Below are positions 6,156-55,302 of a stretch of DNA of 64,000 bases, one piece after another. The DNA lies in NCBI RefSeq assembly GCF_900890425.1, contig NZ_CAAHFG010000001.1, forward strand, positions 2,914,001-2,978,000, given 5' to 3'. The position numbers and the translations under genes are program-made. The stretch's first letter is position 1. Each line of letters starts with the position of its first letter. This stretch comes from Pontiella desulfatans. GTDB lineage: Bacteria; Verrucomicrobiota; Kiritimatiellia; Kiritimatiellales; Pontiellaceae. A model generated the notes under the pieces. The model was not told the DNA's origin. It saw only the letters and a program-made list of their open reading frames with translations, and ran no database searches.

Positions 6156-9136
6156 TTTACGGTCTCTCTGCTTACCGTATTCAGTTGGACGGTTTCGCCG
6201 AGCTTCGGTTTTCCTTCCGTAGTGGAGGTGACCCGAACCGCGATCTTATTTCTTCCGGATTTAAGTGCTTTGGTTACATCCAGGGCAAACGGCGGCATCC
6301 AAAGGGTGTCGAAGGTTTTTCCGTTAAGCGTCACCTGCGCCATGATTTCGACATTGCCCAGGTCCAGCATCACACGCTGATTCTTGCCGAAGTTTTTCGG
6401 CAGGCTGAATTCGGCAACACGTGTTTCGGTGAAACCCTCGTTATCGGTCGATGCGGTTTTCCATCCATCGATATTTACCGACTTCGAATCCGCTTTAACT
6501 GCAACGGAGTGCATTTTTCCGTCACTCATCGTAAGCGTGTACGTCCCCGCTTTTCCGGTTTGAGCGACGAGTTCATTTTTCGCGTTGTAAAAGAGGTCGA
6601 GATCGCTGACCGGAGCAGATGCGTTGACCACCGACGGAACCGTCGCTTTCTCGCGGAACAGCACGAAGAAAGAATCGGCTGGATCTTTGACATCGATTTC
6701 GATTTTCGTTCCGCTCGCCGTCTCTTCGAAACGGGCGATTTTTTGGATTTCGCCGGTTACCGGATTGAAGAGTTCCGGGTGTTTTCCTTTCACGTGGAAC
6801 ATAGCCGAAAACGTGCCCGCCTTCTCAAAGTTGGAGAGGAAGAACAGGTGCTGATCGCCGAGTTTGCGTTCAAGCCAGCGGATCGCACAACTCTCGCCGG
6901 AAACAGCGGGTGGCAGGTTCAACTGCTCCGCGCTTACCGGAACCGAGCGGATAATCCGGCCGCCTTTTTTCTCCAGCTCATCAATGCGCTTCTGGATATG
7001 CGGGCGAATGTGTTTGAGCGTGTTCGGCATCGTCATCACCTTCCAGCTCGCGGAAATCCGATTCGGATCGTTTTCGTCGTAAGTGACCCATTTGCCGTCG
7101 ACCACATCCAGTTTACGCAGGATGGCGTCGGAGCCGACGTAATCATACTGGTACCCGTTGGGCACAGGATTCGGGGGGCCGGTCATCTGCGGCGCAAAGT
7201 CGCCGATATAAACCAGCACGTCGTTGGCGGGATCGCCCCATTGCAGCATGGTATGACATCGCTGCAGATAGTTGATCCAGCCCTGCCCCTCGTTAAACCA
7301 TGGCGTATTGCGATGAAACGCCGTGCCGAATCCTGCATTTCTACCCGGCATTCCGCCAGTGCGGGGCTGATGGAGATAGACGTGCAGGACAAAATGATTG
7401 ATCCCGTCGCAGAACATCCGTTCGCCGCGCGCCTTAAAGCTGTAGGGATTATCCTGAAGGTTGAGTCCGCTGGTAAAGGCCTCCGCATACGTGCGGCGCT
7501 TCCCGTAGGTATGCGCAACCGAACTGGTGGCCCGGCATTCAATATTGCCCAGGTTTCCTTTCGACCAGAACTCGCCGCCCACCTGGTCGGCATAACCACC
7601 GTAAATCGTAAAGTCGCCGGGATAGCCCCAATGGCCGTACGGTTCGCACCAGAGCACCAGGCCGTGTTCATTCGCAACATCCCGAAGACCACCCAGATAA
7701 CATTCGGCAATCATGTCGGCAACCGTCCGGCGCAGATCCCAAAGGAACCGGTCGGACTTTTTGGCGCTGTCGACTACGGTTCCGGTAAATGTGGGCAGCA
7801 TCAGAATCGGATTGTAGCCGTTCCGTTTTTCAAACTCGGCAGCAAATCCATCGGTCCAGTTCTGAGCGCCGACTTCGTAGCTGTCGATGGTGATGCCTTT
7901 GAACGCCGCTTTTTCTTCGGACGTCATCTGCTGATAAAGCGAGCCGACATAGGAATTGAAATGATGCCGTGTGTGTGCCCTGCTCATTTTATCAACTTCC
8001 AGTCCCTTCGCTTCAGGCGCAGCCGGATGATTCTTTGCTCCTGTAGTGATCATTCCGAAATAGATAATCCGCCACTCTCCTTTGGGCAGCGTGCAATTCA
8101 AGACCCCGTCAGCATCAAGCTTGTCGCTGAGGTCGATCATCTCTTTTTGCCCGACCAGCACGGATGTGTCCTCCGGCTCGACGCTATCCTTAAAAATATA
8201 GGAGTCCCAGGTGGGGCTCGGTGTAGGATGCATCCGCCCCATCTGTTTATTGAGCACCTGCGCGACTTTCGGCTCGGACGAGAGAGACACCCGGGCAGGC
8301 GGCACGGCCTTTACCGGTTTATTCTTCTTTTTTTTCCTGCCTGCTGGTTTTGGTTTCTCATAATCGAGTTCAAACCGCTGCGCGGTAACATCAGGAAAGC
8401 TGACCGTTTGCGCCTCTTTCAGCAGGAAATCCGTTTTCGCGAATCCGGCCCTGACATCGATCTGCGCGACAGCTTCGCGTTTCCCGTTGCGGAAGGCAAA
8501 CAAGGTCCCTTTCACAGCACCGTGAATGGAGAGTGAACGGGCGGTAAAGGGTTCGCTGTGCGAAAAGATATATTGTTTTTCTGAAGGTTCCCCTTCAATC
8601 GAGACGCTGTTGAGCTGCGGAACCGCCAGCACCGCAATATCCTGACTGCCCCCGCCAGGGACGCCTTTCGCCCGGACCTTTTGTTTAAATGGGCCGCCAT
8701 TGGCGTTGACCTCACTCCAGATTACACGGCGCATGGATTGCTCCGTTTTAATCCACGGTCCCCCCGACTGGCTCCAGCCAGGGCAGTTGAAGAAATAAAT
8801 ATCTACGCCGACCCGCTTCGCCTCGCGCAGGGCATGCATTTTGAGCTCACGCCACGCTGGTGAGAGCACTTCGACCGGACTGCCTTGCCCGTTATTGGTT
8901 TTCACGCCCACATCGACGTTACCGATCATCGCGCGTGCAATACCGACCTCCGCCATATTTTCCAGGTCTTTGGTAATCCCTTCCGCGGTAATATCGCCTC
9001 CAACCCAATACCAATAACACCACGGACGGGTCTCCTCGGAAGGGCTTTTAAAGGTTTCCATAAGCGGATCTGCCTGCGAAACGCTGACGACCATGCTCCA
9101 GACCAGAAGCGATACGTATTTCCATTTTCTACTCAT
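6152..9136 (-). CDS. Alpha-L-rhamnosidase-like glycoside hydrolase, GH106
   Basis: Large secreted hydrolase of 994 residues matching the GH106 (RhaM/BT0986-type) alpha-L-rhamnosidase layout. The signal peptide ends near residue 22 and is followed by the family-typical opening RPWCYWYWVGGDITAEGI and DLENMAEVGIARAMIGNVDVG. Central catalytic-barrel blocks include DIYFFNCPGWSQSGGPW, ITIDSYEVGAQNWTDGF, LWCEPYGHWGYPGDF and VLHVYLHQPR. The C-terminus holds a GH2-like sugar-binding jelly roll (VMLDLGNVEIMAQVTLNGK, LWMPPFALDVTKALKSGRNKIAVRVT). A Lys-rich segment (KPAGRKKKKNKPVK, about 270-285) interrupts the N-terminal half and looks like a surface insertion. It is followed by GH78 with an ATGA overlap, an arrangement suited to rhamnose side-chain removal. 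Substrate linkage is inferred from the family only. Confidence 0.92.
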   Translation of the reverse strand: MSRKWKYVSLLVWSMVVSVSQADPLMETFKSPSEETRPWCYWYWVGGDITAEGITKDLENMAEVGIARAMIGNVDVGVKTNNGQGSPVEVLSPAWRELKMHALREAKRVGVDIYFFNCPGWSQSGGPWIKTEQSMRRVIWSEVNANGGPFKQKVRAKGVPGGGSQDIAVLAVPQLNSVSIEGEPSEKQYIFSHSEPFTARSLSIHGAVKGTLFAFRNGKREAVAQIDVRAGFAKTDFLLKEAQTVSFPDVTAQRFELDYEKPKPAGRKKKKNKPVKAVPPARVSLSSEPKVAQVLNKQMGRMHPTPSPTWDSYIFKDSVEPEDTSVLVGQKEMIDLSDKLDADGVLNCTLPKGEWRIIYFGMITTGAKNHPAAPEAKGLEVDKMSRAHTRHHFNSYVGSLYQQMTSEEKAAFKGITIDSYEVGAQNWTDGFAAEFEKRNGYNPILMLPTFTGTVVDSAKKSDRFLWDLRRTVADMIAECYLGGLRDVANEHGLVLWCEPYGHWGYPGDFTIYGGYADQVGGEFWSKGNLGNIECRATSSVAHTYGKRRTYAEAFTSGLNLQDNPYSFKARGERMFCDGINHFVLHVYLHQPRTGGMPGRNAGFGTAFHRNTPWFNEGQGWINYLQRCHTMLQWGDPANDVLVYIGDFAPQMTGPPNPVPNGYQYDYVGSDAILRKLDVVDGKWVTYDENDPNRISASWKVMTMPNTLKHIRPHIQKRIDELEKKGGRIIRSVPVSAEQLNLPPAVSGESCAIRWLERKLGDQHLFFLSNFEKAGTFSAMFHVKGKHPELFNPVTGEIQKIARFEETASGTKIEIDVKDPADSFFVLFREKATVPSVVNASAPVSDLDLFYNAKNELVAQTGKAGTYTLTMSDGKMHSVAVKADSKSVNIDGWKTASTDNEGFTETRVAEFSLPKNFGKNQRVMLDLGNVEIMAQVTLNGKTFDTLWMPPFALDVTKALKSGRNKIAVRVTSTTEGKPKLGETVQLNTVSRETVK

Positions 9137-9183
9137 CTTACTCTCTCTTGTTCTTTTCCAACTCGGATAGATGCAGGGTTAAA

Positions 9184-10773
9184 CTATTTCTGGGTCACGA
9201 CCTTCCAGTCGTCGCTCCGGAAAGGTGCCAGCGGGAGCCCGGCACCGTTAAACAGGGTCACATCCGTCGGATTGATCCAGTTGGACCACAGATAACGCAC
9301 CGCGACGGGTTCTTTTACCTCCGGGCTGCTGATGACCAGCTTCCCTTTTTTCAGTTCCGCCGTTGCGCTTACAAACAGCTCGTCCGATCCGGCAATGCTG
9401 AATCCACGTATCGCATCGCCCTTTTGCTTCAATCCTTTCGTGTCTTTCAGCGAAACAATTGCTTTACCTGCCGCGAACTCGACCGACTCAAATGAAGGCC
9501 CGGCAAACTGGATATTATCGCCATAGACCGCTCCGCGTGCATAACGCGCGATTCGTTCACCGACCGGGCGCTTGTTGCGCGGATGAATATCCTTCTCGTC
9601 GCCCAGTTCCGGAATCGGAATGGTTCCAACGTTCGCATCGCCGGCGGCCACAGTCACCTGCGAGTCGCGCACAACCGCCCAGATGGGATGCTCCGCGCCG
9701 CCGCACCCGAAGCCCGGCAGCTGCACCACCAGAAATGGCAGGGACGGATCTTCAAAATCCCTCCGCCAGTTACCAATCAGCGTTTTGAGCACGAAGCGAT
9801 AGTCATAAGCCCGCCACATGTTGGATTCGCCCTGATACCACAACACGCCGCGAACCGAATACGGCAGGATCGGTGCGATCATTGTTCCATACAGCCCGCC
9901 TGCCCGGTGCGCGTGATAAGGCCCCATCGGTTCGACCGGCTTCTCCGGGCTCTTTTTATGCACAAACGCCTTCCAGTCCTCTTTGTACTGAATATAGGCC
10001 GCCTTATATTCATCAAAACCGGCATACTTCTCCTGATACGCTGCATCACACCAGGCGGCATACTCGGTGAACGGCTTGCAGCCGGCCGCAAAATCCGAAT
10101 CCATCCAGGCCTCCGCCGGGGTTCCGCCGCGGGCCGACATAATCAGCCCGACCGGCACATCCTTAAACCGTTCTTTGAGTGCGCGTCCGAAATACCACGT
10201 CACCGCGGAAAAGGCAGTTGAGCTTTCCTTCGTACATTTCTGCCATCCTTTAATCGGAAGATCTGCATCCAGCTCATTCACGATTTCCGACATGGCAAAC
10301 AGATGCAGTCCGTCAATCTCCGCCCCACCGGATTCAAAGAGCTCCGCCGCGCCGTCGGTGTTCCACAACGCCCAACGCATGTTGGACTGCCCACCCGCGA
10401 ACCAGACTTCGCCAACGAGGACGTCGGCGAATGAAACCTGAGACTTGAAACCTGAAACTTGAAGCTTCCGAGGTTTGGAAGAGGCGGGCATAGGATCAAG
10501 TGTTATCTTCCACTTGCCAGTGGCACTCGCCACTCCAGACTTCGTCTGGTCGGCAAATTGAACCGTTACCTTTTCGCCCGACTCAGCTGTACCCCAAACA
10601 ATGATCGGCTTATCACGCTGCAGTACCATGTTGTCGGTAAAGAGCGAACCAGTAGACAACTCAGCAAAAGTGCCCAGCGCGCATAGATTCAGAATGTAGA
10701 GCAAGCGTCCCGCTTGCTTAAACGAGCGGGACGCTCGTTCTACTTTTTCTGCAACAATCTCCCTGATCATCAT
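9184..10773 (-). CDS. Sialate-O-acetylesterase-like carbohydrate esterase (SASA family)
   Basis: SGNH-type secreted acetylesterase of 529 residues, likely removing O-acetyl groups from the glycan so that sulfatases and glycosidases can act. Motifs: GGQSNM with nucleophile Ser130, ARGGTPAEAWMDSDF, LWYQGESNM, and DIHPRNKRPVGERIARYA carrying the Asp/His pair. The beta-sandwich N-domain begins at LFTDNMVLQRDKPIIVWG. Three short repeat elements lie in frame in the first 115 codons. Codons 11-26 are a 48-bp near-palindrome just before the signal-peptide core (peptide VERASRSFKQAGRLLY), codons 76-86 are a double hairpin (QTKSGVASAT), and codons 103-113 are a direct repeat (KLQVSGFKSQV). All keep the frame open. 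The start overlaps the stop of the upstream GH5-like gene (ATGA). The family call is firm; the acyl substrate is unknown. Confidence 0.92.
   Translation of the reverse strand: MMIREIVAEKVERASRSFKQAGRLLYILNLCALGTFAELSTGSLFTDNMVLQRDKPIIVWGTAESGEKVTVQFADQTKSGVASATGKWKITLDPMPASSKPRKLQVSGFKSQVSFADVLVGEVWFAGGQSNMRWALWNTDGAAELFESGGAEIDGLHLFAMSEIVNELDADLPIKGWQKCTKESSTAFSAVTWYFGRALKERFKDVPVGLIMSARGGTPAEAWMDSDFAAGCKPFTEYAAWCDAAYQEKYAGFDEYKAAYIQYKEDWKAFVHKKSPEKPVEPMGPYHAHRAGGLYGTMIAPILPYSVRGVLWYQGESNMWRAYDYRFVLKTLIGNWRRDFEDPSLPFLVVQLPGFGCGGAEHPIWAVVRDSQVTVAAGDANVGTIPIPELGDEKDIHPRNKRPVGERIARYARGAVYGDNIQFAGPSFESVEFAAGKAIVSLKDTKGLKQKGDAIRGFSIAGSDELFVSATAELKKGKLVISSPEVKEPVAVRYLWSNWINPTDVTLFNGAGLPLAPFRSDDWKVVTQK
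10433..10468. repeat. In-frame tandem repeat inside the esterase gene
   Basis: Units of about 14 bp built on GAAACCTGA/GACTTGAAACCTG are repeated roughly 2.5 times with small differences. On the coding strand they read KLQVSGFKSQVS, between the N-domain and the conserved FADVLVGEVW block. The low-complexity repeat and its position between conserved blocks suggest an inserted element kept in frame. Confidence 0.7.
10519..10549. repeat. Double hairpin repeat inside the esterase gene
   Basis: Two adjacent perfect hairpins: AGTGGC-ACTC-GCCACT (10519-10534) and CCAGAC-TTC-GTCTGG (10535-10549). On the coding strand they encode residues 75-85 (DQTKSGVASAT), inside a loop of the N-terminal beta-sandwich. 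The paired palindromes resemble a mobile palindromic element tolerated as protein. Confidence 0.7.
10696..10743. repeat. 48-bp near-palindrome in the 5' end of the esterase gene
   Basis: The left half GTAGAGCAAGCGTCCCGCTT and the right half AGCGGGACGCTCGTTCTAC are reverse complements with few mismatches. The element is exactly 16 codons and encodes residues 11-26 (VERASRSFKQAGRLLY), just ahead of the signal-peptide hydrophobic core. Length and frame allow clean read-through. Confidence 0.8.
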
Positions 10774-12038
10774 TCAAACGTTCCCATTTTGCTGAAGAAC
10801 AGTTCCCAATCGTCGGTCGCATGCCAGAGCCGTTTCTGCTCCAGGCAGTCGTAGGTCCAGTAGAGCATACCGTTCACGTTCGCCTGCAGTGCGAGATCGC
10901 GAACAATGACCATATTATCGACGGCCTCCTCGAACGTTTTTTCAACGTGATCAAACGCGCCGAATTCGCCCATGATCAGCGGTTTCTTCATTCGAATGTT
11001 CTTCATCTCCCTGTCGAACAGGCCGGTTGATGCCAGATTATTTTCAAAGGCCCGCTCAACGGATTCCTTTGTATTGCCTCGATAAAAGTGGACATCGAGA
11101 AAATCCAGCGGACCGTCACCGAGCGCCGTCAGCGTGGGCGGATAGCGCTCATCCTTGAACCGGCCGGGCCACAGACCGGCGTCTGTTTCGTAATCCTTAC
11201 CGACCGCCCGCGGAACAAAAACCCCCTCGGCCACCAGCATGTCGGGATCGATGGCTTTAACAGCCCGAACCATACACTGATGATAAAAGCGGTAGCCGTC
11301 ATCCATCAGTGCCTGCCGCTCCTTCGTATCTGAAAGATCGTAGTGCTTTCCGTTGGCCGCCTTAAACTCCCCTTCCGTTTCCGAAAAAGGCCAGGCATCG
11401 GCCTTTAGATAGGCTTCGTTCTGGCACTGCAACCCCAGCAGTGTCGGCAACAGGGCCGGTTCTTTTTCTTTCACATACGCCAGGAAGGAGGTGATGAACT
11501 CGATGCGCGCCTTGATGCCCTCCTGGGTGAGGATCATGACGTTCTTGTTGTTTCCGGTCTTCCTGAACCGATCATAGTAATAGGCATTCCGCGGCAGCTC
11601 GCCGTCGCCGAAGGTGGGGAAGACGCGGATCCCGTGACGCGTCGCCCGCCGCAGGAAATCGAGCACGTTATCCATGTAGGGTTCATAGTTTCCCTGCGTC
11701 GTGTCGTAGTTTCCGCCGATGCCGGGGTTGGCCTTGCTGCGGCCGATGATGAACACCCGCACGGTGTTGTAGCCGTGTTTTTCCAGGGTTTGGAACATGG
11801 CCTCGGCACGCTCCGGTTCATAGTGCGCTTCGGTGCTGTCGGTGGCGGCATCAAAGGTCGAATGCCCCTGTTCCAGACGAACATAATTAAAGCCCTTCAC
11901 AAAGAAGGGCTTCCCGGAATCCTTCAGAACAAATTCCGCCCCATTGATCCCCGGATTAACCGCAATCCGTTCGAGCGGTTTCATCTCAGCTCTCGCAATC
12001 AGCGCACTCATCGTCAAAACTCCTATCAATACGTTCAT
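10770..12038 (-). CDS. GH5-like (clan GH-A) endo-glycosidase
   Basis: Secreted TIM-barrel hydrolase resembling GH5 mannanase/cellulase-type enzymes. The ATG at 12038 is chosen because it is followed by a signal peptide (MNVLIGVLTMSALIARA); the frame stays open to 12119, but that extension is made of repeat-like sequence. Blocks: PFFVKGFNYVRL, TVRVFIIGR, IRVFPTFGDGELPRN, LGLQCQNEAYL with likely acid/base Glu208, and KKPLIMGEFGAFD with likely nucleophile Glu358 (numbered from 12038). It ends WTYDCLEQKRLWHATDDWELF. It is clearly paralogous to the 25226-26542 gene and to the headless copy at 24395. The stop overlaps the downstream esterase start by 4 bp. Substrate is unknown; an internal linkage in the glycan backbone is likely by family. 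Confidence 0.88.
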   Translation of the reverse strand: MNVLIGVLTMSALIARAEMKPLERIAVNPGINGAEFVLKDSGKPFFVKGFNYVRLEQGHSTFDAATDSTEAHYEPERAEAMFQTLEKHGYNTVRVFIIGRSKANPGIGGNYDTTQGNYEPYMDNVLDFLRRATRHGIRVFPTFGDGELPRNAYYYDRFRKTGNNKNVMILTQEGIKARIEFITSFLAYVKEKEPALLPTLLGLQCQNEAYLKADAWPFSETEGEFKAANGKHYDLSDTKERQALMDDGYRFYHQCMVRAVKAIDPDMLVAEGVFVPRAVGKDYETDAGLWPGRFKDERYPPTLTALGDGPLDFLDVHFYRGNTKESVERAFENNLASTGLFDREMKNIRMKKPLIMGEFGAFDHVEKTFEEAVDNMVIVRDLALQANVNGMLYWTYDCLEQKRLWHATDDWELFFSKMGTFE

Positions 12039-12054
12039 CACGCGGCCTTTGGTT

Positions 12055-12106
12055 GTCTGGCTGTCGCACAGACTCGCTTCGCGTCGCAAAGAGCCACGTC
12101 CTACAC
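12055..12106. repeat. Dispersed-repeat-like sequence upstream of the GH5-like gene
   Basis: The stretch around CTCGCTTCGCGTCGCAAAG followed by GCCACGTCCTACA is rich in short inverted parts (TTCGCG/CGCGAA type) and looks like an extragenic repeat. It lies in the optional N-terminal extension of the GH5-like gene, which argues for the inner start codon at 12038. Confidence 0.45.
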
Positions 12107-12166
12107 TTATCGAAACCATTAAATTACTACCCCATAGTTAAAATATCGCGATTGTCCGGATTTTCT

Positions 12167-12211
12167 GGAGGGACAGTGTCCCCGCTGTCCGGACGCCGTC
12201 CCCGGCGTCCC
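12167..12211. repeat. Double-palindrome intergenic repeat
   Basis: Two consecutive hairpin units, GGACAGTGTCCCCGCTGTCC and GGACGCCGTCCCCGGCGTCC, lie between the 12244 sulfatase stop and the GH5-like gene. The 123-bp gap holds no gene. The structure is typical of REP-like extragenic palindromes and could also stabilise the 3' end of the upstream message. Confidence 0.7.
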
Positions 12212-12243
12212 TATATGTAAAGTTCCCACGTTTAGCCGCCTCA

Positions 12244-13692
12244 TCATTCGTCTTTCTGCGGCGGTTCATATTTATAGGGCGGCTCGCTGTACTCGTACTG
12301 CTCCATCGCGTTGGCCAGCAGTTGCTGCATTTTTTTCAGCTGCGCGGCGGCTTCAGGCGAGTGGATTAGATTTTTCAGTTCGTTCGGGTCCTTGCCGAGG
12401 CGGTAGAGCTCGTCAACGTTGCCCTCGGCGGCACTCTCATACGGAAGATGAATATATTTCCATTCCGGTGTGCGGATCGAAAGCGTCGTCGGAATGGCCG
12501 GCGCATATTTTTCCTGGAAATAGACATAGAAGAACGGATCGGTACGGCCTTCCGCCTTGCCTTCCATCACGGGAACAAACGATTCGCCCTGCATCGTTTT
12601 CGGAGTCTGTGCTCCAGCCAGTTCGAGGATGGTCGGACCGATATCAATATTGGCGACCATGCCATCGATCGACTTTCCGGCTTTCAGCTTCGCGGGATAG
12701 CGCATGGCGAACGGAACACGAATGGATTCTTCATAAGCCAGGCGCTTATCGCCGCGGCGATGCTCGCCATAAAACCAGCCGTTATCCGCCATGAAAATGA
12801 TGACCGTATTATCCAGCCGCCCTTGCTTTTCGAGCAGATCCATCACCCGGCCGACGCCTTCATCCACGGCCAGCATACAGCGGAGCATATCCAACCACTG
12901 TGCGGGTGGAGCCCATTTTTGGGGCGACAGTTTTGCCGGCACCTCTAACCCTTCGCTGGCGACCCATTTTTTATAATGCGGGCCGAAGATTTTTTCGCGG
13001 CGCATCCACGTCGGCTTTTCTGAAAAATCAAGCGACCAGCTTTCCGGCTCTTTGATTTTCGCATCCGGAAACGCATCTTTGTGCCGCTCGGCCGGTGTAA
13101 ACTTGGCGTGACACGCCTTGTGCCAAAGCAGCACACAGAATGGATCATTTTTGTTTTCGGAAATAAAATCGACCGCCTTATCCGTAAGGATATCGGTAAT
13201 ATATCCTTCCTGCTTCACGAAGTCGCCGTTGATATTCAGTTCCGGATTATTGTAAACGCCCTGCCCCTTGAAACTAAGCCAGTAATCAAACCCCGGACGC
13301 GGGCGGGCGTGGTGCGCCATATGCCACTTGCCGATCAATGCAGTTTTATAACCGATCTTCTGCAGGGTCTGCGGGAACTGTTCGAGATGCGGCTCGGGGT
13401 CTTGAATCTCGTTATAACGCACGCCGTGAATGTGCGAATAGGTTCCGGTGAGAATCGACGCCCGGCTCGGCGAACAGAGCGACGTCGTCACAAACATATT
13501 ATTGAATACCGCGCCTTCATCAGCCAACCGCTGAAGATTCGGCGTCTCCAGGAAATCAAAGCGATTATGGAAAATGGCGTCCGGCGCCATATCATCAACC
13601 ATCACAAACAAAAAGTTCGGCTTCTCTTTCGCCGCCGAAACCGCGCCTGCAAACACCAGCAACAAAACTACTGCTTTACTCAACCTATTCAT
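12244..13692 (-). CDS. Sulfatase (type I)
   Basis: Secreted sulfatase of 482 residues with a clear signal peptide (VVLLLVFAGAVSA). Metal-site Asp pair D33-D34 in FVMVDDMAPD, maturation motif C73-S-P-S-R, then IGKWHMAHHARPRPGFDYW, LWHKACHAKFTP, FMADNGWFYGEHR and PFAMRYPAKL. The order matches heparan/N-sulfoglucosamine-type and related arylsulfatases. The C-terminal region has the usual YRLGKDPNELKNL block and ends in a short Pro/Lys tail. The gene is flanked on both sides by intergenic repeats, so it may be its own transcript within the array. Substrate position is unknown. Confidence 0.95.
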   Translation of the reverse strand: MNRLSKAVVLLLVFAGAVSAAKEKPNFLFVMVDDMAPDAIFHNRFDFLETPNLQRLADEGAVFNNMFVTTSLCSPSRASILTGTYSHIHGVRYNEIQDPEPHLEQFPQTLQKIGYKTALIGKWHMAHHARPRPGFDYWLSFKGQGVYNNPELNINGDFVKQEGYITDILTDKAVDFISENKNDPFCVLLWHKACHAKFTPAERHKDAFPDAKIKEPESWSLDFSEKPTWMRREKIFGPHYKKWVASEGLEVPAKLSPQKWAPPAQWLDMLRCMLAVDEGVGRVMDLLEKQGRLDNTVIIFMADNGWFYGEHRRGDKRLAYEESIRVPFAMRYPAKLKAGKSIDGMVANIDIGPTILELAGAQTPKTMQGESFVPVMEGKAEGRTDPFFYVYFQEKYAPAIPTTLSIRTPEWKYIHLPYESAAEGNVDELYRLGKDPNELKNLIHSPEAAAQLKKMQQLLANAMEQYEYSEPPYKYEPPQKDE

Positions 13693-25225: not shown

Positions 25226-26542
25226 CTAATCCTTATCCAGCTCAAAGGTGCCGAGCTTGCTGTAGAACAGATCCCAGTCGTCGGTCGCATGCCAGAGCAG
25301 CTTCTGCTCCAGACAGTCGTAGGTCCAGTACAGCATACCGTTCACCCTTTCCTTCAGCACCAGGTCGCGGACGATCACCATGTTGTCGACCCCTTCCTCG
25401 AACGTTTTTTCCATAAAGTCAAAGGCGCCGAATTCCCCAACGATGATCGGTTTCATCTTGCGGATCTCCGCCATTTCGGGGGCATAAAATCCGGTAGAAT
25501 CCAGACTGTGTTTCACCGCCTCTTCGACAGATTTACGACGGTTGTGGCGATAAATATGGACATCGAGACAGTCGAGCGGGCCGTCGCCCAGGCTCGTCAG
25601 CGTGGGCGGATAGCGTTTGTCCCTGTATTTCTCCGGCCACAGACCGGCCGAATTTTCGGTATCCTTGCCGACCGCCGCCGGCACAAATACGCCCTCGGAG
25701 ACCAGCATCTCCGGATCAATCGCCTTCACGGCATCGACCACACGACCATGATAATAGCGATAGCCCTCGTCCATCAGCGCCTGGCGTTCTTCCGTGCTGG
25801 AAAGGTCATAGGTTTTTCCATTGGCCGCGGTAAAGTTTCCTTCAATCCGGCTGAAGGGGAGTTTATCGGCCTCGAGGTTCGCCTCGTTCTGGCACTGCAG
25901 CCCCAGCAGGGTCGGCAGTACCGCGGGCTCCTTCGCCTTAATATACGACAGGAAGGAAGTGATATATTCCACCCGGGCATCCACGCCCTCCGCAGAAAGG
26001 ATAAACAGGTTTTTCTCCTCGTTATCCCCGTTGAAACGCTTCAGGAAATAGTCGTTGTTCGGAAGCTCGCCGTCTCCAAAGGTTGGAAAAACGCGGATAT
26101 TATGGCGGGTCGCGCGGCGCAGGAAATCGAGCACGTTTTCCATATAGGGTTCATAGAGCCCTTTCGTGGTTTTGTATTCCCCGGCGATACCGGGATTGAA
26201 GGGTTCGCGCCCGATGATGAATACACGAACCGTGTTGTAACCCGAATCCTCCAGTCTCTGAAACATGGCCTCGGCGCGGTCTGGATCATAATCGGCCTTC
26301 GAGAATTCTGTATCGGCTTCAAAGGTCGAATGATCCCCGCCGGGCGTTCCGTCTTCCTTGCGCAGGCGGATATAGTTAAAGCCTGATACATGAAAAGGCG
26401 TCTCGGAATCCTTGAGCACAAACTGCGCCCCGTCCTTGCCTGGCTCAATACCAATCCGCTCTAGCGGTTCAAGCGTTCCCGCACCTGCCGTTGCCACGGT
26501 GGCAACAGCAACCACCCCTTTCAAACAACTCGTTTTCGACAT
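25226..26542 (-). CDS. GH5-like (clan GH-A) endo-glycosidase
   Basis: Secreted TIM-barrel hydrolase of 438 residues, the best preserved of three GH5-like copies. Signal segment with VVAVATVATAGAG; FHVSGFNYIRL-type start of the barrel near 50; TVRVFIIGREPFNPG; IRVFPTFGDGELPNNDY; LGLQCQNEANL with probable acid/base Glu220; LDVHIYRHNRR; KPIIVGEFGAFDF with probable nucleophile Glu370; and the terminal WTYDCLEQKLLWHATDDW. It is longer at residues 62-72 (RKEDGTPGGDH) than the 10770 copy. It lies 8 bp after the 26551 sulfatase, so the two are co-transcribed. Mannanase-like or related endo-activity is only a family-level guess. Confidence 0.9.
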   Translation of the reverse strand: MSKTSCLKGVVAVATVATAGAGTLEPLERIGIEPGKDGAQFVLKDSETPFHVSGFNYIRLRKEDGTPGGDHSTFEADTEFSKADYDPDRAEAMFQRLEDSGYNTVRVFIIGREPFNPGIAGEYKTTKGLYEPYMENVLDFLRRATRHNIRVFPTFGDGELPNNDYFLKRFNGDNEEKNLFILSAEGVDARVEYITSFLSYIKAKEPAVLPTLLGLQCQNEANLEADKLPFSRIEGNFTAANGKTYDLSSTEERQALMDEGYRYYHGRVVDAVKAIDPEMLVSEGVFVPAAVGKDTENSAGLWPEKYRDKRYPPTLTSLGDGPLDCLDVHIYRHNRRKSVEEAVKHSLDSTGFYAPEMAEIRKMKPIIVGEFGAFDFMEKTFEEGVDNMVIVRDLVLKERVNGMLYWTYDCLEQKLLWHATDDWDLFYSKLGTFELDKD

Positions 26543-30689: not shown

Positions 30690-32521
30690 TTCTCCAACTT
30701 CAGGGTCAACTTAAGCACCTCACCAATCGCCGTGCCAGCTTTGGCATCATTCGCTACGGCCAACGAAAACGGGACCGTTCCCGACGGCAAAGCAATAGGG
30801 CCAAAAACGTTTTTTTCGGCCGAGCGGCTTTTGGCAGTGACCGGTTTCCCATCAATCAGCAGGCTGATCGGTGCGCATCGGTCGAAACCTGTACCTTCGG
30901 CGATGAAAGAGACCGTCAGCGGCTTCTGTACTTCAACCGCGTAGTCGGCGCGGTCCCCTGGGTAGCGGAATCCTTTCACGCCGCCGAGATAATCGTGCAT
31001 GTCCATTTTGCCGGTCAGACGCAACGGCTGCAGCACGTTGATATTCCAGGATGCGCCTGGTCGGTCGGCGTTGTTAATCCGCAGCTGCCGCATCTGGAAG
31101 GTGCGGTTGCGCGCGGCGATATCGTCCCAGCGCAACCGGCAGCGTTGGGCCATGGCCTCGGTGCGCTCGGGATATTCTGCGCTCAGGTCGTTTTGCTCGG
31201 CCGGGTCCTTTTCCATGTCGTACAAACGGAATTCGCCCCCCGGCAGATGGTGGAATTTATAGTTCCCGTTACGCAGAATGGTGTGCAGGGAAGAGTACCG
31301 CAGCGTTTTCATATCGGGCGTATTGGCACCCTCTCCGACCGGAACGCCGGGGCCGCCGGTTGCCAGGCGGAAAATGTCGCGATCATCGCTAAACGTTCGA
31401 TCTTTCAGCGAGCCGCTGAAGCTTGTTCCGGAAAAGGGGAAATGCTCCGGATGTTTCTCCTCCGGAATCTGAGCCAGCTCCAGCAGTGTGGGCAGTACAT
31501 CTTCCACGCCGACCGGCTGCTTGCGGATGCCGGGCTTGACTTTTCCGGGCCAGCGAACCAGCAGCGGACTGCGGATACCGTTGTCCCACACCTCGCCCTT
31601 GCGGCCGATCAGATTGCCCGGATTGCGAATGCCCCAGTCCGGCGAATGCGGCCGTTTGGGTTCACTGTTTTCCCAGACCCCCATCTCGCGGTTGTTCATC
31701 GCATCAAGCGACCCGTTATCACTCATAAACAGCACAATCGTATGTTCCGCCTGGCCAGCTTCCTCGACCGCCTGGAGCAACCGGGCGATCTGATCATCCA
31801 TCTGCTTAATCGAGCCATAGCACTGGGCAATATCTTCCGAATAGCCTTTTTTGCGGAACGGCTCGGCATACGACTCCGGTGAATCCCACCACAGGTGCGG
31901 AATAATGTGCGCCATCACCGCGAGCCAGGGTGTATCTCCCGCCTCATTGATTTTTTCAATCGCCGCATCGGTGATCAGCTCCGCGGACCAACCCTCCGTC
32001 CACGTACGCCCTTCCGGTGTCCAGAGTTCCGGCTGTTGATGCAGATACCCGCCGGTGATTCCGCAAAACCAATCAAACCCGCGGTCCGACGGCGTCATTT
32101 CCATCATTTCCAGACCGCCATCCATTTTACCGAACGCCCAGGTTTTGTAGCCGGATGGGGTGAAGAATTTCGGGATCAGCGTTTCGTCGCGCCGCACCTT
32201 GCCGCGCGAGCCAACTCCCCAGACCCCGGTATCCAGATAATTGCGACCGGTAAACAGCGATGATCGCGTCGGCGTACAGGCCGGGCCGACCATGAAATAG
32301 GGATAAAAGGCCGACTCTGCAGCGAGCCGGTCAATCGCCGGTGTCTGCACCACATCGTTACCTGTAAACCCAAAGTCCCCGTAGCCCTGATCATCAGAAA
32401 TAATCAGCAGAATGTTTGGCATTTCCGATTGCCGATCTCCGATTGCCGATTGAAAAGCAGCAACAGACAGCCCAAACACCACCAACCTCTTCACATTCTT
32501 CATAACCGTTAAGTTGAACAT
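30686..32521 (-). CDS. Long sulfatase with C-terminal beta domain; in-frame repeat at signal cleavage site
   Basis: Sulfatase of 611 residues. ATG at 32521 is chosen because GGAGAAG precedes it at 6 bp; a GTG two codons upstream is possible. The signal peptide is followed by QSAIGDRQSE, read from a tandem DNA repeat, then NILLIISDDQGYGDFGFTG, maturation motif C82-T-P-T-R, FGKMDGGLEMMEM, IPHLWWDSPESYAEP and IVLFMSDNGSLDAM. After YKFHHLPGGEFRLYDMEKDP comes a C-terminal beta domain of about 100 residues (VDYAVEVQKPLTVSFIA-like, ending VLKLTLKLEK). Paralogues: 33949 and the IS-split gene. It sits 2 bp after the TIM-barrel gene and overlaps the 29103 start. Confidence 0.93.
   Translation of the reverse strand: MFNLTVMKNVKRLVVFGLSVAAFQSAIGDRQSEMPNILLIISDDQGYGDFGFTGNDVVQTPAIDRLAAESAFYPYFMVGPACTPTRSSLFTGRNYLDTGVWGVGSRGKVRRDETLIPKFFTPSGYKTWAFGKMDGGLEMMEMTPSDRGFDWFCGITGGYLHQQPELWTPEGRTWTEGWSAELITDAAIEKINEAGDTPWLAVMAHIIPHLWWDSPESYAEPFRKKGYSEDIAQCYGSIKQMDDQIARLLQAVEEAGQAEHTIVLFMSDNGSLDAMNNREMGVWENSEPKRPHSPDWGIRNPGNLIGRKGEVWDNGIRSPLLVRWPGKVKPGIRKQPVGVEDVLPTLLELAQIPEEKHPEHFPFSGTSFSGSLKDRTFSDDRDIFRLATGGPGVPVGEGANTPDMKTLRYSSLHTILRNGNYKFHHLPGGEFRLYDMEKDPAEQNDLSAEYPERTEAMAQRCRLRWDDIAARNRTFQMRQLRINNADRPGASWNINVLQPLRLTGKMDMHDYLGGVKGFRYPGDRADYAVEVQKPLTVSFIAEGTGFDRCAPISLLIDGKPVTAKSRSAEKNVFGPIALPSGTVPFSLAVANDAKAGTAIGEVLKLTLKLEK
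32420..32455. repeat. In-frame tandem repeat at a signal-peptide junction
   Basis: CCGATTG/CCGATCT-type heptads (TTCCGATTGCCGATCT then CCGATTGCCGATTG) repeat in tandem. On the coding strand they give QSAIGDRQSE, between the signal peptide core and the first strand of the 30686 sulfatase. The paralogues at 33949 and 20334 have no such segment, so the repeat appears inserted. Confidence 0.7.
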
Positions 32522-53637: not shown

Positions 53638-55302
53638 CTATTTTTTCTTCTTGTTCGCTTCGCGGGAAGCCTTTTTGGACGGCTTTTTGTCCAAGTAATC
53701 CAGCCGATTGAGGTTGTTGATTTGTGGCGCACCCGGCGTGGAGCGACCCCGCTCCAGATCGTGTTTCAATTTGTCGAACAGGCGCTGCTTCACTTCGGGA
53801 TATTCCAGCAACAGATTTTTATATTCGCCGACATCGTCCTTGAGGTTGAACAAGCCCATCGGCAACTGGTTTTCATCCTTCACGGCCCCGAACGCCGTTT
53901 TCATATACCGTTCACCGGGACGGGTCCAACCGCCCGACCCTTGCGCGACGATCAGTTTCCAGTCGCCGTCGGTGATCGCTAGTTTAGAACTAATCGTATT
54001 ATAAATGGCGCTCTTACGCGGCGAGCTGTCGGAGGTTCCTTTCAGGAGCGGGAGGAAACTGATCGAATCTTCCCCCTCGTTGTCGGCGAGTTGCTGTCCG
54101 GTGAGTTCGGCAAAGGTCTCCAGAAAATCGACATGGGAAATCAGCTGGTCGCTGTTGCGCCCTTTCGGTGCTCCGGCCGGCCACTGGATGACAAACGGCA
54201 CACGATTCCCACCCTCGTACAAATCGGCTTTTTGACCCCGATAGATGTAGCTCGGATTATGACCCTTTTCCAAGTGGACGGTGTAATCGGCATGCGGCGC
54301 ACAGCCGTTATCGGCGGTAAAGATGACGATGGTGTTTTCTTCCAGGCCCGCCTCGCGCAGTGCGTTCAAAACCTGACCCACCACGCCATCGGTCTGCATC
54401 GCAAAATCGGCATACTTTGTGCCAATCGCACTTTTTCCGGCCCATTCCGCCGACGGGACAATCGGGGTGTGCGGCGAGTTCAGCGCGAGATATAAAAAGA
54501 AGGGCGTTCCCTTTTTTGCCTCGGGCCCACACTTTTTGATCAGGGCGGCCGCCTCATCGCCCATACGCGGCAATACATCTACCGTCTCGAACGATTTCGC
54601 CTTCGGGCCTTCGCGCATATAACACTGCTCACCCCTGACGTTGGGCTGTGTTTCTGTGGGCACTTCGCTTGCACGGTCGTCGATCAGCCAGACATAGGGC
54701 GGAATATCGAGCGAGGCGGCAATGCCGAAAAAGCTGTCAAAACCGCGGTCAACCGGTCCCCCGCCAAACGGCTGGGTATAGTCGATATCTTTAAGCGCAA
54801 TGATTTTGCCCTTCTTTACCCCCGGGAGCGCCTCCCAATCCAACCCCAAATGCCATTTGCCGATCATCGCCGTCCGATATCCCGCTTTTTTGAGGAGCGA
54901 AGCCAGCGTCGTGCGTCCCTTTTCGACACGTGCCGGACTGTTTCCTTTCGCAACCTGACCGCTATTTGAAGCGCGCCAGCTGTAACGCCCTGTCAACAAG
55001 CTGTACCGGCTCGGCGTGCAGACGCCCGAACTGCTGTGCCCGTTTAAGAGCGCCAGCCCGTTATTGATCAGGCTATCGATATGTGGCGTCGGGATTTTTC
55101 CTTCCGGGTTCAGCCCCGACACATCCCCCACGCCCATATCGTCCGCATTGATCAACACGATATTCGGCCTGTCCTGAGCTTGTCGAAGGGGCAACTTCGC
55201 CGCAAACGTTGAAAGCGCAGCCATGAAACATAGTGCACCGATGATCACTCGCCGTCCCGCTGAGCGGAACGGAAAACATACCCTATTCATTCTATTGTTC
55301 AT
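53638..55302 (-). CDS. Sulfatase with two repeat-derived peptides at the N-terminus; Lys-rich tail
   Basis: Sulfatase of 554 residues. The signal region contains PFRSAGRR (codons of a near-perfect palindrome, 55252-55272), then the hydrophobic core IIGALCFMAALSTFAA, then LPLRQAQDR (codons of the repeat at 55169-55191) before NIVLINADDMGVGDVSG. Maturation motif C95-T-P-S-R; MIGKWHLGLDWEALPG; FLYLALNSPHTPIVPS; IVIFTADNGCAPHADYTVHLEKG with IYRGQKADLYEGG. The C-terminus ends KKPSKKASREANKKKK, a basic tail. The sulfatase fold is complete, so the repeat peptides are probably removed or tolerated with the signal peptide. Substrate unknown. 21 bp downstream of the GH95 stop. Confidence 0.94.
   Translation of the reverse strand: MNNRMNRVCFPFRSAGRRVIIGALCFMAALSTFAAKLPLRQAQDRPNIVLINADDMGVGDVSGLNPEGKIPTPHIDSLINNGLALLNGHSSSGVCTPSRYSLLTGRYSWRASNSGQVAKGNSPARVEKGRTTLASLLKKAGYRTAMIGKWHLGLDWEALPGVKKGKIIALKDIDYTQPFGGGPVDRGFDSFFGIAASLDIPPYVWLIDDRASEVPTETQPNVRGEQCYMREGPKAKSFETVDVLPRMGDEAAALIKKCGPEAKKGTPFFLYLALNSPHTPIVPSAEWAGKSAIGTKYADFAMQTDGVVGQVLNALREAGLEENTIVIFTADNGCAPHADYTVHLEKGHNPSYIYRGQKADLYEGGNRVPFVIQWPAGAPKGRNSDQLISHVDFLETFAELTGQQLADNEGEDSISFLPLLKGTSDSSPRKSAIYNTISSKLAITDGDWKLIVAQGSGGWTRPGERYMKTAFGAVKDENQLPMGLFNLKDDVGEYKNLLLEYPEVKQRLFDKLKHDLERGRSTPGAPQINNLNRLDYLDKKPSKKASREANKKKK
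55169..55191. repeat. In-frame dispersed repeat (CCTGAGCTTGTCGAAGG)
   Basis: CCTGTCCTGAGCTTGTCGAA and the following GGG match a short repeat widely seen in bacterial genomes, whose translation is LRQAQDR or STSSGQA depending on frame. Here it encodes LPLRQAQDR at the signal-peptide junction of the 53638 sulfatase. Paralogues go directly from Ala to PNIVLI. Confidence 0.75.
55252..55272. repeat. Palindrome inside a signal-peptide n-region
   Basis: CCGTCCCGCTGAGCGGAACG and its final G form a near-perfect inverted repeat (19 of 21 positions symmetric) within the first 20 codons of the 53638 sulfatase. It encodes FRSAGRR, giving the n-region its positive charge. Confidence 0.6.

Follow-up and report, generated by a model that had tools for sequence, protein, structure and literature searches.

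A gene for a sialate O-acetylesterase-like enzyme of the marine bacterium Pontiella desulfatans, carried on a 64,000-nucleotide stretch of the genome (contig 1, positions 2,914,001-2,978,000; referred to here as the window), raises the question of how repeated DNA comes to be translated inside a folded enzyme. A first-pass annotation had proposed three repeat elements in frame in this one gene, as a parallel in another phylum to the palindromic elements of Rickettsia; elements 1 and 3 are indeed dispersed repeats, but element 2 is single-copy (Table 1). What that annotation missed is the most unusual fact of the locus: the same esterase hairpin, encoded here by element 3, has been rewritten repeatedly by two unrelated families of tandem arrays. 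The esterase matches sialate O-acetylesterases among the PDB sequences, and its AlphaFold model has a mean pLDDT of 90.7 over 529 residues. The host genome is 8.66 Mb in size with 56% G+C in the sampled part and numerous sulfatases; genes were called by simple ORF rules and each species is represented throughout by one genome. Rfam yielded zero matches in window positions 9000-12400. The neighborhood shows other duplications and palindromes: two GH5-like genes at window 10774-11864 and 25242-26332, 14.5 kb apart, are 71-75% identical, and the short GC-rich palindromes GGGACAGTGTCCCC and GGACGCCGTCCCCGGCGTCC lie at about 12160-12215, in the intergenic stretch that separates the GH5-like gene from the sulfatase gene that follows.

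Table 1. The esterase gene and the repeat-like features within it, in window coordinates
Feature	Position	Strand	Description
SASA-type (sialate O-acetylesterase-like) esterase gene	9184..10773	-	529 aa; Pfam PF03629, E 2.6e-19
Element 1, head-to-head GTAG-tagged palindrome pair (REP-like doublet)	10696..10743		codons 11-26, signal-peptide region
Element 2, two adjacent hairpins with 6-bp stems and an outer closing stem	10519..10549		codons 75-85; single-copy
Near-copy (1 mismatch) of the 15-bp palindrome TTCCAANNNTTGGAA	10466..10480		codons 98-103, directly 5' of the heptamer array (gene sense)
Element 3, TTTCAAG-family heptamer array	10432..10464	-	encodes beta-hairpin LQVSGFKSQVS, residues 104-114

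Element 3 reads CTTCAAG TTTCAGG TTTCAAG TCTCAGG TTTCA in the sense of the gene; what had been reported as a short tandem repeat is thus a tandem heptamer array belonging to a dispersed family, and it is not palindromic. Nor is it an insert between conserved blocks as proposed. The stretch from Trp to the GEVW motif measures 32-34 residues where an array is present and, in other esterases, mostly 30-34, a net length change of zero to three residues at the site, and the array therefore replaces the native hairpin rather than being an added insert. In the AlphaFold model the array-coded residues 104-114 lie across a beta-hairpin of two strands and a turn (strand 98-107, turn, strand 112-128; local pLDDT about 96). 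Native members of the family have similar strand motifs, e.g. LTVSG...I.F.DVLVGEVW. Because seven is one more than a multiple of three, (TTTCAAG)n yields a single seven-residue cycle, FQVSSFK, whichever frame of one strand is read, and that this cycle is free of stops follows directly from the genetic code. Hydrophobic and polar residues take turns along the cycle, which is predicted to fold as strand-turn-strand at precisely the place of the native hairpin.

Recurrence at this one site was followed through 182 esterase genes related to this one, 325 kb in all, of which 134 were covered by an earlier scan. In the 134, tandem matches of period 7, 8 and 14 occurred inside genes only at this hairpin, with one additional array match upstream of a gene. 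In the 182, all 11 period-7 and all three period-8 arrays sit 6-11 residues before GEVW, a clustering with a naive p of about 6e-21 when relatives are treated as independent. The first tandem-array scan, at a stricter threshold, gave a single array and thresholds were relaxed afterwards; although they were set in the course of the work, the gap in scores is wide, since (TTTCAAG)n scores are bimodal, with 14 of 159 sites at 15 or above and the remainder at 10 or below. For the octamer (ATCCAATA)n, seven sites score at least 13. The two main families at the hairpin are accordingly TTTCAAG (14 genes by scoring) and the ATCCAATA octamers (7 genes), and esterases from other phyla showed no arrays. 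In the 14 site arrays QVS...QVS is kept and the turn residues drift. The peptide GVASA, common to the window gene and L052, was considered as a further repeat and ascribed to similarity of native motifs.

To this extent the first-pass annotation holds: the gene does carry dispersed in-frame repeats, and related genes are without them or have others in their place. Three sister pairs, all supported, carry different array families (the window gene and L038, L320 and L326, L300 and L310): DNA identity at the site is 0.33-0.39, against 0.81, 0.68 and 0.77 downstream. The opposite relation holds between the window gene and the distant L075, with identity of 0.88 at the site vs 0.50 downstream and of 0.94 over the 33 nt of the arrays. 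Within a single genome the 33-bp arrays of L297 and L300 are 0.97 identical. Array similarity is slightly higher within genomes (0.82) than between them (0.76), which leaves room for copying between paralogues, and copying between arrays or paralogues is possible. A tree of 85 Kiritimatiellae esterases, built with the site left out, requires at least 18 changes of array type by a parsimony count that is blind to gain vs loss, and shuffled labels on the same tree give a mean of 20.9 (range 18-22), so that the observed scatter is almost equal to the shuffled one; the tree was built by a quick method and has several long branches.

A near-copy of a second dispersed sequence adjoins the array. The 15-bp palindrome TTCCAANNNTTGGAA, whose loop is nearly always exactly 3 bases, has 45 copies in 2.06 Mb vs 0-4 for permuted hexamers; counts are 245 in this genome, up to 1339 in relatives and 0-6 in other genomes, with 0-3 for the reversed control. 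Spacings between copies cluster near 21-23, 29-32 and 41-43 bp, suggesting helical phasing. It is frequently found in coding DNA, translated as SNxWK, and in many esterases (L091, L295, L310, L320, L323, L326, L332 and others) it supplies the SNHW codons, the conserved Trp among them, at a single homologous position 35-38 codons before GEVW.

Heptamer arrays are in good supply in the genome as a whole. In the 2.06 Mb of the 8.66-Mb genome on which the statistics are based there are 27 period-7 arrays, compared to 0 in codon shuffles and to 0-4 for each of the neighboring periods 4-6 and 8-10; the arrays thus exceed chance. Their units are varied (TACGCAT, GATCACG, CAACCAG, TATCCAG and others), and many of the arrays are read in frame within conserved genes, those for MutL, UDP-glucose dehydrogenase, a glycosyltransferase (four arrays), an epimerase and a sulfatase of the window. 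TTTCAAG itself recurs at many loci, with 21 overlapping pattern matches in this genome, 158 in G021 and 95 in G008 (0-4 for the reversed control), and five genomes have dispersed arrays of both the TTTCAAG and the octamer kind, reversed-pattern controls again giving 0-4. Particular cases are four different in-frame tandem arrays in the glycosyltransferase ORF L240:16385-17704; a TTTCAAG array that, in three species (L334, L341, L355), immediately precedes the likely ATG of a DEAD-box helicase; in-frame TTTCAAG arrays in a GTPase-like protein (NKVDLGNQFSSFKFQVSSF) in L340 (G016) and in a 764-aa protein in L347 (G021); and an in-frame AATCGGC array at window 32420-32453, close to a sulfatase N-terminus. 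Among relatives across the order, the MutL genes (L394-L418) are rich in heptamer arrays of unrelated sequence, almost all of which fall in the interdomain linker. Strand propensity is 1.10 for the esterase-site arrays vs 0.85 for the MutL-linker arrays (p 2e-5), and is also greater for the esterase-site arrays than for other coding arrays (p 0.001), kin being treated as independent in both comparisons.

The STRR of cyanobacteria are heptanucleotide repeats, and the present arrays share with bacterial repeats of this kind a 7-nt unit, dispersal as short imperfect arrays, highest density outside genes and patchy occurrence among species. Unlike the known repeats, they are also found inside the folded domains and linkers of conserved enzymes, and they recur at one homologous hairpin where two unrelated families alternate in sister genes. 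Heptanucleotide repeats are described as common in bacteria, and a connection with polymerase slippage has been drawn (Mrazek 2007, as cited in PMC4679880), examples being GGGAATC in Xanthomonas and Nostoc (PMC4692102) and TAACTGA in Beggiatoaceae (PMC4679880). In the open-access literature on heptamers and on Pontiella no report was found of heptamer arrays lying in frame at a site where they recur.

Element 1 is a separate event, most likely the capture in frame, within the signal peptide, of a REP doublet of the kind mobilized by RAYT proteins. The near-palindrome is confirmed as 48 bp or 16 whole codons, in frame and with related copies in the genome; its RNA folds at -33.9 kcal/mol (z -7.9). 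It consists of GTAG-AGCAAGCGTCCCGCTTGCT and GTAG-AACGAGCGTCCCGCTCGTT facing one another, and relatives occur at about a dozen places, including at least one more doublet, with a spacer (L020). The GTAG tag, the GC-rich palindrome, the head-to-head doublet, the dispersed copies and the existence of in-frame intragenic cases are all features of GTAG REPs and BIMEs; unlike these, element 1 is low in copy number, and no adjoining RAYT gene was found. The commonest GTAG-tagged family in this genome has a different sequence, GTAGCTCGCATATCCGATGCGAG. Addition in frame is seen by comparison with one element-free paralogue, the 75% identical L038, which reads MMRRIWFVVFCALAVSVSAA where the window gene has MMIREIVAEK-[16 codons]-LNLCALGTFA. 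L038 has an insertion of its own near 1660-1690, nine in-frame residues, PSAGSGQAG, coded by CCTTCGGCAGGCTCAGGACAGG, DNA with a related copy at about 55173-55189 of the window. The start codon of the esterase gene overlaps the stop of the upstream GH5-like gene (ATGA, as read from the sequence), and this coupling argues for translation through element 1, supporting it rather than proving it. In-frame intragenic GTAG REPs were described in 2013 in several species, with the caution that amino-terminal cases may be annotation errors (PMC3733652). The same paper notes that the RAYT gene may be lacking or may have different repeats at its sides. Because the species included the verrucomicrobium Opitutus terrae (PMC3733652), a parallel to Rickettsia in another phylum was already known for palindromes. 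Mobilization by a neighboring RAYT was considered and found no support at the loci covered: the genome has 19 matches to the Y1 transposase family (Y1_Tnp), and no copies of element 1 were present at the 10 of these 19 loci looked at.

Element 2 differs from both of its neighbors in being neither mobile nor repeated. The double hairpin proposed for it is real as a structure (fold z -4.6), and comparable double hairpins number about 20 per 2 Mb vs 6 in shuffles. No second copy was found in the 8.66-Mb genome, and protein length around it is ordinary among relatives; it is therefore not counted as a repeat element and was dropped as a repeat family.

For element 2, ordinary protein conservation, under which family motifs account for the peptides and the repetitiveness of the DNA is only apparent, is the best account, the peptide fitting the native length. 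The likeness among native strand motifs would invite the same account of the hairpin, where it is highly improbable and already contradicted for element 3: distant genes resemble one another far more at the site than downstream, array scores are bimodal with clean controls, the arrays recur at other places in the genomes, and esterases of other phyla have none. Nor can the first-pass proposal be dismissed as a matter of peptides shared among related proteins with no repeats in the DNA, because DNA-level copies exist in the genome. In-frame selfish elements of the Rickettsia kind, mobile palindromes that survive by keeping the frame open, would describe element 1 well enough, palindromic, tagged, dispersed, of whole codons and absent from L038 as it is, in a genome that has Y1-transposase genes. 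As an explanation of the whole locus such elements are unlikely. Rickettsia palindromic elements are, like the elements here, repeat DNA in frame within genes of functional proteins, but they are palindromic insertions, whereas element 3, the main one in this gene, is a tandem array that is not palindromic and takes the place of native codons; element 2 has neither a second copy nor any change in length, and even element 1 had no copies at the Y1-transposase loci checked.

Closer to the facts of the hairpin, and still unlikely, is a directed rewriting in which arrays are copied into the site from another esterase paralogue or another array, through ectopic gene conversion or templated repair; the array itself would serve as homology and the families would switch like cassettes. 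Near-identical 33-bp arrays in distant genes (the window gene and L075, L297 and L300), the length-neutral replacement and the sister pairs swapped exactly at the site all speak for such a process, but conversion tracts into the flanks are absent, best array matches are found between genomes as often as within them, and no enzyme or donor has been identified. That a directed process of this sort rewrites the hairpin with the two families as cassettes among paralogues, and so diversifies a hairpin across a large carbohydrate esterase family, seems a little less likely again.

The arrangement is probably due to a mutational supply of heptamer arrays acting together with a filter set by protein structure, which leaves at the hairpin only those arrays that code for beta strands. 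Element 3 is one member of a dispersed, imperfect (TTTCAAG)n family and has taken the place of the native codons of one beta-hairpin. A general process blind to sequence, be it slippage or repair templated by another array, would bring arrays into coding DNA, and where they survive would then depend on purifying selection for protein structure: a flexible linker such as that of MutL may tolerate any array sequence, and the hairpin would keep only beta-coding arrays. The fit to the hairpin and the contrast in strand propensity support this combination of general supply and structural selection. Against it stands that purely random landing with tolerance of the product does not readily explain why this loop alone, among the many of a 500-residue enzyme, should be hit, nor why replacement is length-neutral rather than additive.

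The locus suggests that working parts of proteins can come from junk repeats of the genome, and it offers, as a natural experiment, a clean view of non-coding repeat DNA becoming protein. Here the source of mutation, arrays of heptamers that can be read in any frame of one strand, is separable from the structural filter, and both are testable. Sister genes that have exchanged array families at the same ten or so codons likewise make the long-standing question of whether in-frame repeat insertions are selfish, neutral or useful a directly testable one.
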